Virus record (IMG/VR): IMGVR_UViG_3300020171_000087
Coordinates: 1-33,567 of that record
Reading direction: 5' to 3' (one strand)
Origin: a virus
Length of the DNA: 33,567 bases
Shown here piece by piece: positions 8,519 to 26,915 of this stretch. The translations under genes were made by a program, and so were the position numbers. Within the stretch, counting starts at the first letter, position 1. Every line of letters begins with the position of its first letter. The notes below the pieces were generated by a model, which saw only the letters and a list, made by a program, of their open reading frames with translations, did no database searches and was not told the DNA's origin.

Positions 8519-8590
8519 GTTATCCACTTGCTTTACTTTGGGAAGTGTGATAGGATTATAGGGCATAGAAATATGATTAGTCGCTTAAAG

Positions 8591-8645
8591 GAAACTGGGG
8601 TAAATACAAAGAGGGGTGCGACTTCCCAGTTTCGCCCCTCTTTTT
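8591..8645 (+). terminator. terminator with interleaved (pseudoknot-capable) upstream helix
   Basis: GAGGGG(tg)CGA pairs with TCGCCCCTC and is followed by TTTTTAT: a good intrinsic terminator. A second 9-bp perfect helix, GAAACTGGG (8591-8599) with CCCAGTTTC (8625-8633), uses the terminator loop as one strand. The order is X-Y-X'-Y', so the helices interlock or compete. It lies directly upstream of the initiator-like gene at 8655 and may act as a regulated attenuator. Confidence 0.65.
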
Positions 8646-11078: not shown

Positions 11079-11714
11079 ATGGGATTTCAAAAGGGACATA
11101 AAACAAATTTAGGGAAGAAATTTCCTTCTTGGTCAGAAGCGAGAAGGGTAAAGATGGTTAAAGCATTAACAGGAAAACACCGTACAGAGGAACAAAGAAG
11201 GAGAATGAGTGAACGGCAAAAAGGGAAACATCATTCTCCTCAAAGCGAGTTTAAAAAGGGGTCTAAGTTAACAGAAGAAACGAAAAAGAAAATAAGTAAA
11301 GCCTTAAAGGGCAGAATTCCTAAAAATTTATCTCAAATAAACGCAGATAAGTTTGGAGAGAATAATCCAGCGTTCGGTAAGAAGCCTTGGAATTGGAATA
11401 AAGAACGTCCTGAAATATCTGGGGAAAGACACTGGAACTGGAAAGGTGGGATTACGCCTTTAACACATTTAATAAGGAACTGTTTTGAATACCGTCAATG
11501 GCGTTCAGATGTTTTTACAAGAGATAACTTTACTTGTGTATTGTGTGGTGCGAGTGGGACTTGTTTGGAGGCAGACCATTTCCCAAAACTATTTTCTAGT
11601 GTTATGAAGGAATATGAAATAAAAACCCTTGAACAGGCGCTATCCTGTGAGGAGCTGTGGAATATAAATAATGGCAGAACACTATGTAAGTCTTGCCACC
11701 TAACGAAGAGATGA
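11079..11714 (+). CDS. HNH homing endonuclease with NUMOD3 repeats
   Basis: 211 residues. The N-terminal half has several NUMOD3-type DNA-binding repeats (LGKK...SEARRVKMVKALTGK; TEEQRRRMSERQKGK; LTEETKKKISKALKGR), typical of intron-associated and free-standing phage homing endonucleases. The C-terminal part (about 145-211) is an HNH nuclease: FTCVLCGASGTCLEADHFPK ... NGRTLCKSCH, with two zinc-binding Cys pairs and the catalytic Asp-His. It lies 5 nt after the peptidase gene. I see no convincing promoter, unlike the other endonuclease genes here. Confidence 0.85.
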   Translation: MGFQKGHKTNLGKKFPSWSEARRVKMVKALTGKHRTEEQRRRMSERQKGKHHSPQSEFKKGSKLTEETKKKISKALKGRIPKNLSQINADKFGENNPAFGKKPWNWNKERPEISGERHWNWKGGITPLTHLIRNCFEYRQWRSDVFTRDNFTCVLCGASGTCLEADHFPKLFSSVMKEYEIKTLEQALSCEELWNINNGRTLCKSCHLTKR

Positions 11715-12169: not shown

Positions 12170-12793
12170 ATGTATGATAGAAATTACTATTTAGAGCATA
12201 AAGAGGAATTTATTAAACGGGCAAATGCTTGGAGGAAGTTACATCCTCGTAAAGAAAGGGAATATTACTTAAAAAATAGAAGTAAGATTATTGCGAGAAC
12301 TAAGAAATACTATCTTAAAAATAAAGATAAAATTGTTCTTTATAGAAAAGAATATTGGCAAAGACTAGAAGTTAAAGAAAGGAGGCGAGGTGAACAAGGA
12401 AGGTTATTAAGAAAACGATTTCCCATTAAAGACAGAGAAGCTTATCTGCTTTATTTGAATAAATATCGAGCAAATATGCCTCCAGAAAGAAAGAGAGCTT
12501 ATGGTAAAGTTAGACATAATAATCGGAGAAGAAGGGAAAAAGAGGCTGGTAAATTTAACACTTTTGAATGGTTGGTTTTGGTTAAGAAGTGTGATAATAA
12601 ATGTTTAGATTGTGGCAATCAAGAACCATTTGTCGGTCAACTTTATGAGTATCTTACTATTGACCATATTATTCCTTTAATTAAAGGAGGAACTAATGAT
12701 ATTAAAAACATTCAACCACTTTGTTTTAACTGTAATATGAGAAAAGGAATTAAGATAATAAAAGCTCCCGCCTTATTGGATATCGGGAGCTGA
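12170..12793 (+). CDS. HNH homing endonuclease
   Basis: 207 residues. The N-terminal ~100 residues are very basic with repeated YYLEHKEE, YYLKNRSK and YYLKNKDK units, probably DNA-binding. The C-terminal HNH domain reads CLDCGNQEPF ... LTIDHIIPLIKGGTNDIKNIQPLCFNCNMRKG, complete with two Cys pairs and the DH...N...H-like core. It shares the GKF(N/T)..EW and TIDHI(I/M)P..KGGTN.I.NIQ.LC..CN segments with the HNH protein at 26205, so the two are relatives. Its own strong promoter, end hairpin and flanking inverted repeats mark it as a self-contained cassette. Confidence 0.9.
   Translation: MYDRNYYLEHKEEFIKRANAWRKLHPRKEREYYLKNRSKIIARTKKYYLKNKDKIVLYRKEYWQRLEVKERRRGEQGRLLRKRFPIKDREAYLLYLNKYRANMPPERKRAYGKVRHNNRRRREKEAGKFNTFEWLVLVKKCDNKCLDCGNQEPFVGQLYEYLTIDHIIPLIKGGTNDIKNIQPLCFNCNMRKGIKIIKAPALLDIGS
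12764..12793 (+). terminator. hairpin embedded in the HNH stop region
   Basis: AGCTCCCG pairs perfectly with CGGGAGCT, 13-nt loop, with the stop codon at its right foot. A T-rich stretch (TTTGTTTTT) begins about 12 nt later. It probably reduces readthrough from the HNH gene, or shields its mRNA end. Confidence 0.5.
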
Positions 12794-22124: not shown

Positions 22125-22142
22125 CTTGCTATCTTCGGCAAG
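22125..22142 (+). promoter_or_regulatory. leader hairpin CTTGC/GCAAG, copy 1
   Basis: CTTGC-tatcttcg-GCAAG lies 22 nt before the ATG at 22165. A near copy (CTTGC-gtctccg-GCAAG) lies at 23111-23127, 22 nt before the ATG at 23150. The matching position suggests a shared regulatory site. Confidence 0.5.
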
Positions 22143-22164
22143 TAAAACAAAGAAGAGAAACATT

Positions 22165-22620
22165 ATGCCAAAACCGAAAAAGGAAGTAGAAGCATCAGAG
22201 TTCGTTACCAAGGAGTATTTTGAAGAGCAAATCGGCAGGATTCTTAATCTTGTTGAGAAAATCGTTGAACCTAAAAGCACCGCAAAACCAGAAGACATAA
22301 GAGCGGCAGAGGTCAATAAAACGCCAGTGCCCGCGGAGTGGAATTTCTATATTGATTCTCACCTTGGAAAAGATATAGGCAGGAGCGTAATCTATCCAAA
22401 ATCAGGCGCAGGATTTATTCTCCAAATGTCTATTCCGAGGGAGCTGTCAAACGCCGCAGAAGACCATTGGAATTACTACCACCACGATTTCAGGACAAAG
22501 GCGATAGATTCAAGGGAAGGTTTTGAGGGAGTTAAGACTTATGTAGACCTTGTCGCTCGAAACCTCAAACTTGATTTAAGGGCAGTGGCTGATAGAAATT
22601 CAAAATTGGCTGTAAAGTAG
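22165..22620 (+). CDS. hypothetical head-region protein
   Basis: 151 residues from the ATG at 22165. A Lys/Glu-rich helical N-terminus (about 1-50) is followed by a mixed domain with YIDSHLGKDIGRSVIYPKSGAGFILQMS. No family is recognised. It has its own promoter and a leader hairpin shared with the scaffold gene. Confidence 0.6.
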   Translation: MPKPKKEVEASEFVTKEYFEEQIGRILNLVEKIVEPKSTAKPEDIRAAEVNKTPVPAEWNFYIDSHLGKDIGRSVIYPKSGAGFILQMSIPRELSNAAEDHWNYYHHDFRTKAIDSREGFEGVKTYVDLVARNLKLDLRAVADRNSKLAVK

Positions 22621-22621
22621 T

Positions 22622-22987
22622 ATGTCTAAAACAAAAAGAACAACATTAAAAGAAATTATGAACAAAACAATCAAGTTGGAAGTATCTGAACGCATTATCG
22701 CTCTTGGAATGCTTCGTCAGTGGAAGGGTAATCTTGAGGATTTAGCTATAGTCCAAGAGGATTTGAAGCAATTTCCGTTCACCGAGAAAGAGAAAGAGGA
22801 GTTAGGTATCGTTGAAAAGGAAGGTTCTATACAGTGGAGACCGGATGCACCCGCTAAAGATTTCAATATTTCAAAGACATCGGTGGATTTTCTGGTTGAA
22901 AAGATTAAGGAGCTTTCGGACAAGAAGTTGCTTTCGCTTGCGGATAGCCCTGTTGTGTCGTTATTTGGGAAACTGGAAAGCAAATAG
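22622..22987 (+). CDS. hypothetical protein
   Basis: 121 residues, Lys/Glu-rich and mainly helical. It starts 1 nt after the previous stop, so they are co-translated. No motif is recognised. A large structured RNA element follows within 15 nt of the stop. Confidence 0.6.
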   Translation: MSKTKRTTLKEIMNKTIKLEVSERIIALGMLRQWKGNLEDLAIVQEDLKQFPFTEKEKEELGIVEKEGSIQWRPDAPAKDFNISKTSVDFLVEKIKELSDKKLLSLADSPVVSLFGKLESK

Positions 22988-23001
22988 TGTTCTTTACAAC
23001 T

Positions 23002-23101
23002 GAACTGTTACATTGTCGGGCAGGTCGCCCTGCTCCTGAACGAGTTATGTAACAGTTCCTTGTTCGGGAGCATAGCGACCTGCCTAACGGCGGGTCGTTT
23101 T
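23002..23101 (+). ncRNA. pseudoknot-capable RNA switch with intrinsic terminator
   Basis: Four helices are visible. A: GAACTGTTACAT (23002) with ATGTAACAGTTC (23047), 12 bp perfect. B: GGCAGGTCGC (23019) with GCGACCTGCC (23075), 10 bp perfect. C: GCTCCTGAAC (23032) with GTTCGGGAGC (23062), 10 bp with one G-U. The right strand of A lies in the loop of B/C, so A and B/C make a pseudoknot. D: CGACCTGCC with GGCGGGTCG, TAAC loop, then TTTT: a terminator that takes the right strand of B. B and D exclude each other. The element fills the gap before the scaffold gene. Confidence 0.75.
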
Positions 23102-23110
23102 ATAAATAAT

Positions 23111-23127
23111 CTTGCGTCTCCGGCAAG
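23111..23127 (+). promoter_or_regulatory. leader hairpin CTTGC/GCAAG, copy 2
   Basis: CTTGC-gtctccg-GCAAG, preceded by TAAT like the copy at 22125-22142, and 22 nt before the scaffold-like ATG. Confidence 0.5.
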
Positions 23128-23149
23128 AGAAAAACGGGAGTAAAAAATT

Positions 23150-23956
23150 ATGGAAAACGAAAAAGAGGAAGAGAAACCAATCACTTCGGAGCTTGAGGGA
23201 TTAGAACCCATACCCGAAGAGATTGCTCCGTCATCTTCAGCGGAGGAGCCAAAGCCAGAGGTAGCTGTCGAGCCACCCGAGGCAGGGGTAAAGACAGTTG
23301 TTACGGCTACGCCTTTAGAGGAATATATTGCGAAACTCGAAGGAGAAGTAGGCACGAGGCGGGGAGAAAATGAAACTCCCGAAGCGTATGCTCTTCGGCT
23401 TGAAGTTACTAAACTTCGGCGTGAACGAAGAGAGGAACGCAAGGAAATCTTTAAACCAGTAGATTCAGCGGTTAAGGAGATAGTTAAGGAAGTCGCTGAT
23501 GACCCTCTTTCTCAATATAATCCCGAAGAAGTGTCAAACTTTGAAAAATTGTTTGATGCTATCTCTAAAAAGAGGGGGTTGGTTCAGAAAGATGAACTCC
23601 AAATTACGAGCTGGAACGATAAAGCGCAGGATATTCTTGAAAACTTCCAAGCGAAGCATAAAGAATACGATGATGACGCTTTATGGGACAGGTTCAAAGG
23701 TGAGTTTCAAAGCGGGAAATACAATACGCATCCGCAGAATCCAAAGCTTTTAACCGAAATCTTTAACGAGATTCACAATAAACTCTTTCCAAAGACGATT
23801 AGCCATACCGCGGTAGCCGCGGGTAAGGAGAAAATCCAAGCTGCGGCACACGGAGGCACGACTATTCCAAGCACCTCAAGAAAACCCATTGACCCTGACT
23901 TAAAAGCAGCGTTGAAAGGATTTTCAGACGAGGAATTGGAAGAACTATCCCAGTAA
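23150..23956 (+). CDS. scaffold-like head assembly protein
   Basis: 268 residues. The first ~70 are strongly acidic with many Glu and Pro. A central charged helical region (about 75-130) looks like a coiled coil. The C-terminus ends in an acidic helix (DEELEELSQ). This composition, and the position immediately upstream of the decoration-like and major capsid genes, fit an internal scaffolding protein that guides prohead assembly. No protease motif is seen. GGGAG lies about 9 nt before the ATG. Expression may be gated by the upstream RNA element. Confidence 0.65.
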   Translation: MENEKEEEKPITSELEGLEPIPEEIAPSSSAEEPKPEVAVEPPEAGVKTVVTATPLEEYIAKLEGEVGTRRGENETPEAYALRLEVTKLRRERREERKEIFKPVDSAVKEIVKEVADDPLSQYNPEEVSNFEKLFDAISKKRGLVQKDELQITSWNDKAQDILENFQAKHKEYDDDALWDRFKGEFQSGKYNTHPQNPKLLTEIFNEIHNKLFPKTISHTAVAAGKEKIQAAAHGGTTIPSTSRKPIDPDLKAALKGFSDEELEELSQ

Positions 23957-24424: not shown

Positions 24425-24957
24425 ATGTTAACATTAGCACAAGCAAGCAGGGCGATTGACTTATCTTTTCAAAGATATGTTTCTAAGACATCTACGCCCG
24501 AAGAACAGTACAAGAAGTATTTTAATTTTAGAACTACGACTGATTACCAGGAAAAGGATTCGGGACTTTCGGGTCTGGGAGAGTCTTCGTTCGTAGACGA
24601 GAACGGAGTAATCGTTGAGGATACTCCGATACAGACATACGCAAAAACCTACACACAAACGATGACAGCTTTGATTGTCAAGTTTTCGTGGATGGTCTGG
24701 AAATTTGGAATTAAAAAGCGTGATTTGGACATTCGCGCCCAAGAGTTAAAGAGAGCAGACCTTCGTAAGAGGGAAAAACTTTGCGCTGAATATCTGACTA
24801 ACGGGTTTGAATCTCTTTCTTACGCTCACGCTGACCAAGGAGGTCAGAAAACAATCACGACTTCAGGAGGCGATTCTCTTGGAATGTTCGATGATGACCA
24901 CACGAGAGCTGATGGCGGAACGGCCATGAATAACTTCGTATATGACGGTAGGTCTTT
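24425..24957 (+). CDS. major capsid protein, exon 1
   Basis: First 177 codons plus two bases of the major capsid gene. Without splicing the frame would stop at 24974. The exon encodes the N-arm and E-loop-like region (EEQYKKYFNFRTTTDYQEKDSGLSGLGES) and a long helix (about 85-125) of an HK97-like fold, by position and general pattern. It joins to 25656-26163 to give a 346-residue protein reading YDGRSF-STPAF across the junction. The exon ends AGGTCTTT, which pairs with the intron guide sequence. Confidence 0.85.
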
Positions 24958-25057
24958 AGTATGTAGTGCCGCGTAAACGAAGGTCTGAAAGTTCTTTGAA
25001 AAATCGAAAGGAAAATAAATTATCTCTGATTACTTGGAAAATCTGACGACATACTAT

Positions 25058-25085
25058 TTGACATCAACTATAGTAGGTGTATAAT
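25058..25085 (+). promoter_or_regulatory. consensus leaderless promoter inside the intron
   Basis: TTGACA (25058-25063), 16-nt spacer, TATAAT (25080-25085), then 6 nt to the ATG at 25092. Both hexamers are perfect. Confidence 0.8.
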
Positions 25086-25091
25086 AATAGT

Positions 25092-25589
25092 ATGAACAAG
25101 ACAACCAGAGGCAAGCTGAATCCTTTACAATTAGCATATATAGCAGGATTTGTAGATGGTGAAGGGAGTATATTTATCACTAAAATAAAAGTGTCTCCTA
25201 AAAGGAATTATAAGAATCCACAACATATTCTGCATGTAAGCGTGGTAAATACCTATCACGATGTAATACATTGGCTTAATAGGCATTATAATGAAAAAGC
25301 AAAAATGCTTTATAAACCGAAAGCCGAAGATTATCATCGGGAAGTAGCAGTATTTCTCGTATCGGGCTTAAACGCTTTGTATTTCTTAGAAGAAATTTAT
25401 CCTTATTTGAAAGTTAAAAAAGGGCAAGCAAAATTAGCTATTCAATTTCAACAAAGGAAAATGAAAGAAAACAGAGGAGGGATTAAACTTACAATAAAAG
25501 ATATGCAATGGAGAGAACAATACCGAGAAAAGATAATGGTTCTCAATAATTCAAGGATTCTTCGCAGCCGCAACGAGCAAGCGAGATAA
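25092..25589 (+). CDS. LAGLIDADG homing endonuclease (intron-encoded)
   Basis: 165 residues from the ATG at 25092. The motif LAYIAGFVDGEGSIFI (14-29) is the LAGLIDADG helix with its catalytic Asp/Glu; one copy, so the enzyme should act as a homodimer. Basic residues throughout fit DNA binding. It would cut capsid genes lacking the intron and drive its spread. An in-frame GTG at 25077 lies upstream of the predicted transcript start and is not used here. The last codons overlap the 3' half of the intron core, a usual compromise between ORF and ribozyme. Confidence 0.9.
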   Translation: MNKTTRGKLNPLQLAYIAGFVDGEGSIFITKIKVSPKRNYKNPQHILHVSVVNTYHDVIHWLNRHYNEKAKMLYKPKAEDYHREVAVFLVSGLNALYFLEEIYPYLKVKKGQAKLAIQFQQRKMKENRGGIKLTIKDMQWREQYREKIMVLNNSRILRSRNEQAR

Positions 25590-25655
25590 CACCAAAACAG
25601 ATAGGTGAAGCGGTGCTCTGAACTCATAAGAAATTGTGAGATGTAGACAGAAATG

Positions 25656-26163
25656 TTCTACACCAGCTTTTGCTGAGCAACAATTGACTACATTTAACGT
25701 GCCTTTTGATTACGCAGGTTTGAAAGCCGCGCATAGAACAGCGTCTTTATTCGTTGATGACAGGGGCAACCCTCAACCAGCGAAGATAGACACTATTGTG
25801 TGTAAGACAGCTTCTTCAGTCGCTTTTAAGGCGAAAGAAATTAACGGAGCATTAAGAGCTGGGAAGATTCCAGAAAGCTTTGATAACGATGGAGCTGGAG
25901 CGTCAGCGTATAAGATACTCGAATTAGATTATCTTACTGCCGACGCTAAATGGTTTGGATTTGATTCTTCTCTTTTGAATGACCCGAGGACTTACGGTCT
26001 TCAGTTCATAGAATCAGAAGGCGTTACAGTTGCTCCATCCAATCAGATTTATCAGACGATGGCGATTGAAGTTCGCGGACACAGCATCTTCAATCACGGG
26101 CATAACGATGTCGCGAGGATGTGGGTCGGCTCGATTGGAGATTCTAGCAACCCGACTAGCTGA
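25656..26163 (+). CDS. major capsid protein, exon 2
   Basis: C-terminal 168 residues plus one base of the interrupted codon. The exon has P-domain and A-domain-like beta/alpha pattern (PAFAEQQLTTFNVPFDYAGLKA ... SLLNDPRTYGLQFIESEGVTVAPSNQIYQTMAIEVRGHSIFNHGHNDVARMWVGSIGDSS), ending in the way HK97-like capsid proteins of this group do. An apparent GTG start at 25636 lies inside the intron and is not expected to be used. The first bases can partly pair with the intron guide (P10-like). Confidence 0.85.
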
Positions 26164-26204: not shown

Positions 26205-26915
26205 ATGAGAAAACCACAAAGAAGCAACAAAACGGGAAAGTGTATTGTCTGCAGAACAGAGTTAGCTCTTTCAAAATGGAAAGATAGGGACAGAATAGGA
26301 TACAGACTTTATTGTTCTCCTGAGTGTGAATGGCAAGATAAAAAGAAAAACTATTGTGAACAGAAATCTTGGCTCAAGCGTCCACATCTTTGGAAATGGA
26401 AAGTAACAAGAATTTGTGAGGTTTGTAAGAAAGCATTTATTCCAAAGTCAGTAGGTCAAAAGTATTGTCTGTGTCAATATAAATGCACCCCAAGAGCAGT
26501 TTGGAAAAAGAAGAATTGGGATAAGCACTTAGAATCTCAAAGAAGATTATCTAAGAAAAGAAGATTAGAAAATCCAGAAAGAGAACGAGAAAGAGTGAGA
26601 GCTTGGCAGAAAGCTAATCCAGAATATGTCAGATTACGGAAAAGATTTGATGTTAAACTTCGTAAACACCGGATTAGAGCCGCTGGAGGTAAATTCACTC
26701 GAAAAGAATGGGAAAGTGTTAAAAAATCACAGAATTATCTATGTAAAATCTGTGGTGAGGAGAAAGAATTAACGATTGACCATATTATGCCTATAAAACC
26801 AAAAACAGGCAAAGGAGGAACAAACCACATTGATAATATCCAAGCTCTTTGTATGGAATGCAATCGTATTAAAGGAAATAGAGTTGATTCTGTTCTGCAG
26901 ACAAACACCAGTTAA
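26205..26915 (+). CDS. HNH homing endonuclease with N-terminal zinc fingers
   Basis: 236 residues. Two Cys-rich zinc modules (CIVCRTELAL...YCSPEC, and CEVCKKAF...YCLCQYKC) occupy the first ~95 residues, then a basic Arg/Lys helical region (about 100-165). The HNH nuclease is at the C-terminus: YLCKICGEEKELTIDHIMPIKPKTGKGGTNHIDNIQALCMECNRIKGN. It is related to the 12170 gene in its nuclease half and also has its own promoter. It sits between capsid and fibre genes and is likely a free-standing homing endonuclease rather than a capsid accessory. Confidence 0.9.
   Translation: MRKPQRSNKTGKCIVCRTELALSKWKDRDRIGYRLYCSPECEWQDKKKNYCEQKSWLKRPHLWKWKVTRICEVCKKAFIPKSVGQKYCLCQYKCTPRAVWKKKNWDKHLESQRRLSKKRRLENPERERERVRAWQKANPEYVRLRKRFDVKLRKHRIRAAGGKFTRKEWESVKKSQNYLCKICGEEKELTIDHIMPIKPKTGKGGTNHIDNIQALCMECNRIKGNRVDSVLQTNTS

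Follow-up and report, generated by a model that had tools for sequence, protein, structure and literature searches.

A candidate loop-capture attenuator and an adjoining start-site pseudoknot upstream of the scaffold and capsid genes of uncultured phages

The timing and balance of scaffold and capsid synthesis in phages are explained mostly by proteins and promoters. Among RNA elements that decide between termination and read-through, the closest described systems are trp-type leaders, transcriptional riboswitches and T-box leaders, in which hairpins compete for one strand, the deciding strand lies upstream and a terminator precedes the regulated operon. The pT181/pIP501 attenuators, which control plasmid copy number, are switched by antisense RNA from the opposite strand. 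At start sites, the preQ1-I riboswitch covers the start site with a small H-type pseudoknot whose third loop is A-rich, and it is characterized by a conserved P2 and a long L2 pocket. The operator of T4 gene 32 consists of a pseudoknot of approximately 28 nt, followed by UAAA-rich repeats before the start codon (PMC535899).

We analyzed a 33,567-nt stretch of virus DNA (IMG/VR record IMGVR_UViG_3300020171_000087, here called the window) and its relatives. The gap before the scaffold-like gene contains an element with the same layout as trp-type leaders, transcriptional riboswitches and T-box leaders, with strand B' as the contested strand. Unlike in these systems, the upstream strand A shares no bases with the antiterminator stem and would instead capture its apical loop, acting by topological exclusion, and we recognized neither a leader peptide nor a site for tRNA or a ligand here. 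The pT181/pIP501 attenuators are similar in their long hairpin loops and in the control of the terminator by an upstream strand, but they need an antisense RNA, and no sigma-70-like promoter is listed on the opposite strand near the capsid-leader element.

Structure and occurrence of the capsid-leader element

All helices that a preliminary description had placed in this gap are present, in the proposed order A-B-C-A'-C'-B' followed by D (Table 1). Of the lengths given there (12, 10 and 10 bp), those of A (12 bp) and B (10-11 bp) hold, whereas C extends over 14 bp when G-U pairs are included. B and C belong to a single hairpin, each forming a segment of its 26-nt arms (23019-23044 and 23059-23084), which are 85% complementary. 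B' can indeed serve as a terminator arm: the terminator hairpin has the tetraloop TAAC and then TTTTATAAAT directly 3', and a T-run is present, although it comprises 4 T only and was missed by a simple scan requiring 5 T in 8. The combination of a G+C-rich hairpin and a T-run that characterizes intrinsic terminators was thus found at 23074-23103, and it is kept in relatives. As described previously, the two folds are exclusive, because terminator and antiterminator compete for B'; an alternative fold that takes the 5' arm of the terminator, B/B' versus B'/D, was found in every listed element. In contrast, the single interlocked pseudoknot containing all three helices had to be abandoned. In model-building, the linkers of 4 nt between A and B, 2 nt between C and A' and 0 nt between A' and C' preclude such a static three-helix structure. 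The element region has an MFE of -57.7 kcal/mol (z -6.7), and 0 of 200 shuffles were as stable. When the 280-nt leader was dinucleotide-shuffled 100 times, no shuffle reached the score of the whole layout.

Table 1. Positions of the RNA features and neighboring genes in the window
Feature	Position	Strand	Details
Candidate loop-capture terminator	8591..8645	+	upstream strand A 8591-8599; arms of the terminator 8608-8616/8635-8643; A' 8625-8633 within the terminator hairpin; precedes DnaD-like replication gene
Second pseudoknot copy, CTTGC-TATCTTCG-GCAAG-TAAAACAAA-GAAG	22125..22155	+	before gene starting at 22165; same gene position in L014 and others
Upstream gene, 121 aa, no assigned function	22622..22987	+	stop codon 14 nt before helix A; homologues in L017, L032, L077, L078, L079
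Strand A (GAACTGTTACAT)	23002..23013	+	partner A' 23047-23058, 12 bp, all Watson-Crick; proposed anti-antiterminator
Strand B (GGGCAGGTCGC)	23018..23028	+	base of antiterminator hairpin; partner B', 10-11 bp
Strand C (TGCTCCTGAACGAG)	23031..23044	+	upper part of antiterminator hairpin; 14 bp with C', G-U included
Strand A' (ATGTAACAGTTC)	23047..23058	+	occupies the apical loop (14 nt) of hairpin B+C
Strand C' (CTTGTTCGGGAGCA)	23059..23072	+	partner C
Terminator hairpin AGCGACCTGCC-TAAC-GGCGGGTCGTT with T-run TTTT	23074..23103	+	strand D 23089-23099
Strand B' (GCGACCTGCCT)	23075..23085	+	common to B pairing (antiterminator) and D pairing (terminator)
Start-site pseudoknot	23110..23149	+	P1 23110-23115/23123-23128; P2 23118-23121 (CTCC)/23137-23140 (GGAG); then conserved TAAAA
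Scaffold-like gene, 268 aa, acidic	23150..23956	+	no family matched; name derived from composition and location
Major capsid protein, N-terminal part (split gene)	24425..24976	+	HK97-type capsids are top fold matches of the relatives' protein, weak

The identity of the capsid gene is suggested by weak PHROG matches to major head proteins and by an AlphaFold model of the relatives' protein (pLDDT 64), for which the best PDB matches were almost all HK97-type capsids, none of them below E 0.001. In the window, the capsid gene (24425-26163) is split by an insert at 24977-25635 that contains an HNH endonuclease ORF (25077-25589, phrog_5046); Rfam detected no group I intron in this insert. A perfect sigma-70 consensus promoter, TTGACA-16-TATAAT, is located at 25058-25085 within the insert and overlaps the start of the HNH ORF. 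Four HNH endonuclease-like genes are present in the 33-kb fragment (11079-11714, 12170-12793, 25077-25589 and 26205-26915). The capsid genes of relatives (L002, L098, L087, L015/L082, L023 and L131) either carry inserts elsewhere or are intact with approximately 334 aa. In the capsid gene of L079 (5986), L080 and L107, four in-frame TGA codons were found, three of them at conserved tryptophans, indicating that this lineage probably reads TGA as Trp.

Relatives were reached through terminase and capsid alignments and comprise approximately 170 loci of uncultured phages, numbered here with the prefix L. With the scaffold protein or the exact DNA as queries, no close relatives were detected; an annotated phage collection searched by DNA and by capsid protein gave no match, and neither did GTDB genomes searched with the capsid protein. 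In L002 and L003, the gap before the scaffold gene folds with the same helix order from other sequences, the contig of L003 stopping before the scaffold gene itself. A detector built from the first three examples, which demands A-B-C-A'-C'-B' and the terminator in order, yielded 32 forward matches and 1 reverse match in 1.88 Mb of related loci and 1 match in dinucleotide-shuffled sequence; the forward matches include overlapping copies of the same contigs and represent approximately 25 independent elements. They are located roughly 1.35-2.1 kb upstream of the capsid start, in the scaffold-gene gap, with L027 as the sole exception. In this distant phage, which has another portal and another capsid gene, the element precedes a scaffold-like gene at the same place. 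The position originally reported, upstream of scaffold, decoration and capsid genes, is thus borne out and extends to relatives.

A relaxed detector identified the element in 26 of the 64 leaders that could be tested, and for each of them none of 100 shuffles scored as well; two of these cases (L156 and L168) are weak or doubtful, and two further leaders (L094 and L152) apparently contain the element even though it was missed. More than half of the related leaders are without a detectable element, indicating that it is not essential to the gene order, and L112, L005 and L015 are clearly without a terminator. On the capsid tree, the element occurs in 22 of 53 cases, scattered over the whole tree with approximately 13 changes, so it is old or has been gained and lost repeatedly. 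In the leaders of L112, L159, L005 and L015, a terminator is lacking although a long hairpin or the start-site pseudoknot is present; they possibly constitute a translation-only version.

Between phages, the letters of the helices are largely replaced while pairing is retained. Helix A was assessed blindly in 29 loci that had been picked by B, C and the terminator alone, ignoring A. In 25 of them, the 28-nt flank formed at least 7 consecutive Watson-Crick pairs with the apical loop, compared with a mean of 1.7 and a maximum of 7 in 1000 permutations with swapped partners. The duplex score of B+C was 53 with the own partner versus 22 after swapping, and the own partner was the best in 23 of 24 loci. 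Between L111 and L122, both partners differ in 5 pairs, and 93% of cells are paired versus 34-52% when slid; for helix A of these two phages, the aligned count of both-side changes was 1. In helix C, both-side changes amounted to 3/10 between L002 and L003 and to 5/15 between L102 and L126. Covariation, which had been set beforehand as a refutation test, is strong. As the fold is kept while nearly every letter changes, it is probably a real on/off switch for shell production, and we have very high confidence that the folded structure itself is real.

Proposed switching mechanism and alternative explanations

We consider it probable, although well short of certain, that the element acts in cis as a topologically gated transcription attenuator of the scaffold-decoration-capsid operon, in whose leader it lies. 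In the read-through fold, the long hairpin B+C/C'+B' would sequester B' and RNA polymerase would continue, whereas the stop fold would be the intrinsic terminator B'/D. Strand A would pair with A'. This partner is the first to become available to it during transcription and also forms the apical loop of the long hairpin. As long as A held the loop within a few bases of the hairpin base, the full hairpin could not close, B' would remain free and termination would follow. On balance, A is thus expected to act as an anti-antiterminator, and freeing or hiding it would increase read-through into the capsid genes. The read-through RNA would then meet a second checkpoint, the H-type pseudoknot over the scaffold start site. 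Sequence and covariation demonstrate the helices, their exclusive use of B', the conservation of their place and order, and the start-site pseudoknot; we infer from anatomy and covariation that termination occurs, that A favors it and that capsid expression is timed by it.

According to helix geometry, a 12-bp A/A' helix that abuts C' without a spacer should not coexist with a closed C/C', and with only 4 nt between A and B, strand A should be unable to reach the apex of the 24-bp hairpin, which would make A/A' compatible with the terminator and incompatible with the full antiterminator. Across loci, the A-B and A'-C' linkers are mostly 0-9 nt long, the latter being zero in many. As a counterpoint, A/A' together with B/B' may be sterically possible when C is open, and this combination would block the terminator too. 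Energies were computed for nested folds, as partial pseudoknots cannot be scored; the two states differ by a median of approximately 5 kcal/mol, with the B+C antiterminator lower in 20 of 26 loci. C' and B' are transcribed only after A/A' has been completed. Such a pattern points to a kinetic decision, in which a free A would lead to the terminator and an occupied A to read-through.

The distance from the end of the terminator to the scaffold start is mostly 42-60 nt and is occupied by the start-site pseudoknot. A scan of this gap for sigma-70-type promoters gave no excess (2 sites versus 1.1 expected), indicating that capsid transcription probably needs read-through. A search for a T7-like RNA polymerase produced no match, and its positive control gave none either.

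The upstream stop codon lies 5-24 nt before A in 23 of 26 loci (median 17 nt), while in the remaining three the automatic choice took short ORFs. This is the usual place of a terminator and, together with the high stability of the structure, could point to a constitutive terminator that protects the 3'-end of the upstream packaging/portal transcript, with the extra helices shielding it from exonucleases or forming an RNase III site and without any switching. However, the competition between B/B' and B'/D in every element would be superfluous for a pure terminator or protector, and a full stop would silence the capsid genes, before which no promoter is visible. We therefore regard constitutive termination as unlikely, even if it is the strongest of the alternatives.

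The stop-codon spacing would either keep the ribosome off A or let the ribosome disturb A. In the latter case, the element could be a translation-sensing attenuator, in which the ribosome ending the upstream gene covers or disturbs A and read-through reports the translation of this gene, as the nearly fixed start of A relative to the stop codon might suggest. A ribosome at a stop codon covers only approximately 10-13 nt beyond it, however, placing A mostly just outside its reach, and the spacing fits equally well with a compact genome in which interference by the ribosome is avoided. No leader ORF of the trp type was recognized inside the element; the gene that ends 14 nt before A is of full size and might allow a ribosome-coupled version. 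Translation sensing appears somewhat less plausible still than a constitutive terminator.

Selection of the fold by a metabolite, by capsid or scaffold protein or by an early phage protein, as in a riboswitch or an autogenous operator, would agree with the riboswitch-like wiring and the adjoining start-site pseudoknot. Among phage pseudoknots, that of T4 gene 32 is the best known, and it serves as an autogenous target for a protein (PMC535899). The almost complete lack of conserved sequence in the attenuator argues against a fixed ligand pocket, and there was no Rfam match, so that we deem gating by a ligand or protein improbable. A DNA-level palindrome serving as packaging, replication or recombination site, which the long inverted repeats adjoining the head genes might recall, is highly improbable and was rejected on the strand bias of 32 forward versus 1 reverse matches, as well as being at odds with the 3' T-run, the fixed place just past the stop codon and the tolerance of G-U pairs. 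For antisense-RNA control, no supporting site was seen; among sigma-70-type sites, none is listed on the reverse strand near 23000-23200.

The second site and the start-site pseudoknot

The capsid-leader element, interpreted as an attenuator, had been grouped with a second site at 8591-8645 into one phage-specific family of pseudoknot-gated terminators. This grouping can be upheld only in part. The second site is likely to be real, as judged from sequence comparison: L175 and L177 have the same layout with changed, covarying letters before the homologous replication gene, while in L180 the long hairpin is present without a clear A. Its wiring is different, however, since the captured loop is the terminator's own. 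The proposed loop capture is common to both sites, whereas the expected effects of A are opposite. A genome-wide excess of this loop-of-terminator (type-2) layout was not found (9 forward, 5 reverse and 2 shuffled matches), so the argument for type 2 is only its conserved place in three phages. A further pairing of the terminator loop (8621-8628) is possible with an 8-nt strand farther upstream (TGGGAAGT, 8539-8546). Outside the capsid leader, other hairpins whose loop shares 13-14 nt of complementarity with the immediately preceding sequence were observed at L020:1477 and L050:8813.

Nearly all relatives contain a pseudoknot between the terminator and the scaffold start, in which P1 has 5-6 bp and P2 is formed by 4 loop nucleotides paired with the 4 nt preceding the conserved TAAAA. 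L1 is mostly 2 nt, L2 0-2 nt and the A-rich L3 mostly 8-13 nt long, which is the geometry of an ordinary, feasible H-type pseudoknot, and the start codon mostly follows 7-10 nt past P2. P2 comprises at least 4 bp in 44 of 51 leaders, whereas swapped partners gave 16.5 on average and 29 at most. Variants of P2 that deviate from the Shine-Dalgarno sequence stay paired (CGCC/GGCG, CATC/GATG, CACC/GGTG and CTGC/GCAG). A strict search for the pseudoknot gave 88 forward and 0 reverse matches, 52 of them at the scaffold gene and 36 elsewhere, many preceding another structural gene.

Two covarying RNA elements in tandem separate the packaging genes from the capsid genes in phages for which the searched collection contained no cultured relative. 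If the switch works as proposed, the logic of the attenuator would be loop capture instead of strand sharing, and dozens of natural sequence variants could be tested by a simple transcription assay. If confirmed, such elements would supply RNA circuits with compact building blocks. Structured RNAs of viral dark matter can escape family libraries, since hardly any of their sequence is conserved.

Comparison with known systems

Rfam searches with the window and seven relatives gave nothing above the gathering threshold, and a T-box leader was not matched in the window, in line with the initial assertion that no named class has this layout. A literature search, mostly without subscription journals, found no description of the layout either. 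We therefore file the capsid-leader element as a new variant of the transcription attenuator outside every named family. Only tentatively, and with rather less than even confidence, do we propose a new principle: phage RNA switches that form a family in which a strand lying upstream takes hold of the apical loop of the hairpin that follows, so that this hairpin is topologically forbidden. The captured hairpin would be the antiterminator at the scaffold genes and the terminator at the replication gene, and the former would be followed by a new family of start-site pseudoknots, so that RNA would control capsid production in two steps throughout a large group of uncultured phages.

The start-site pseudoknot resembles the preQ1-I riboswitch in its H-type form, its A-rich third loop and its position at the start site, but it has neither the conserved P2 nor the long L2 pocket (L2 is 0-2 nt) and gave no Rfam match. 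SAM-II and SAM-V riboswitches of Pelagibacter are simple pseudoknots too (PMC2704228). They have conserved ligand-contact bases and precede methionine genes, whereas the letters of P2 vary freely here and the genes are phage head genes. The nearest analogue is the T4 gene 32 operator, which likewise combines a pseudoknot with UAAA-rich sequence (PMC535899), and a pseudoknot followed by a UAAA-rich segment before the start codon was found at 23110-23149. The gene 32 system has another downstream gene, in place of the scaffold-like gene found here, and no attenuator is described there (PMC535899). In T4, the pseudoknot is located upstream of the Shine-Dalgarno sequence and nucleates the binding of gp32 (PMC535899), whereas P2 of the start-site pseudoknot uses the Shine-Dalgarno position itself.
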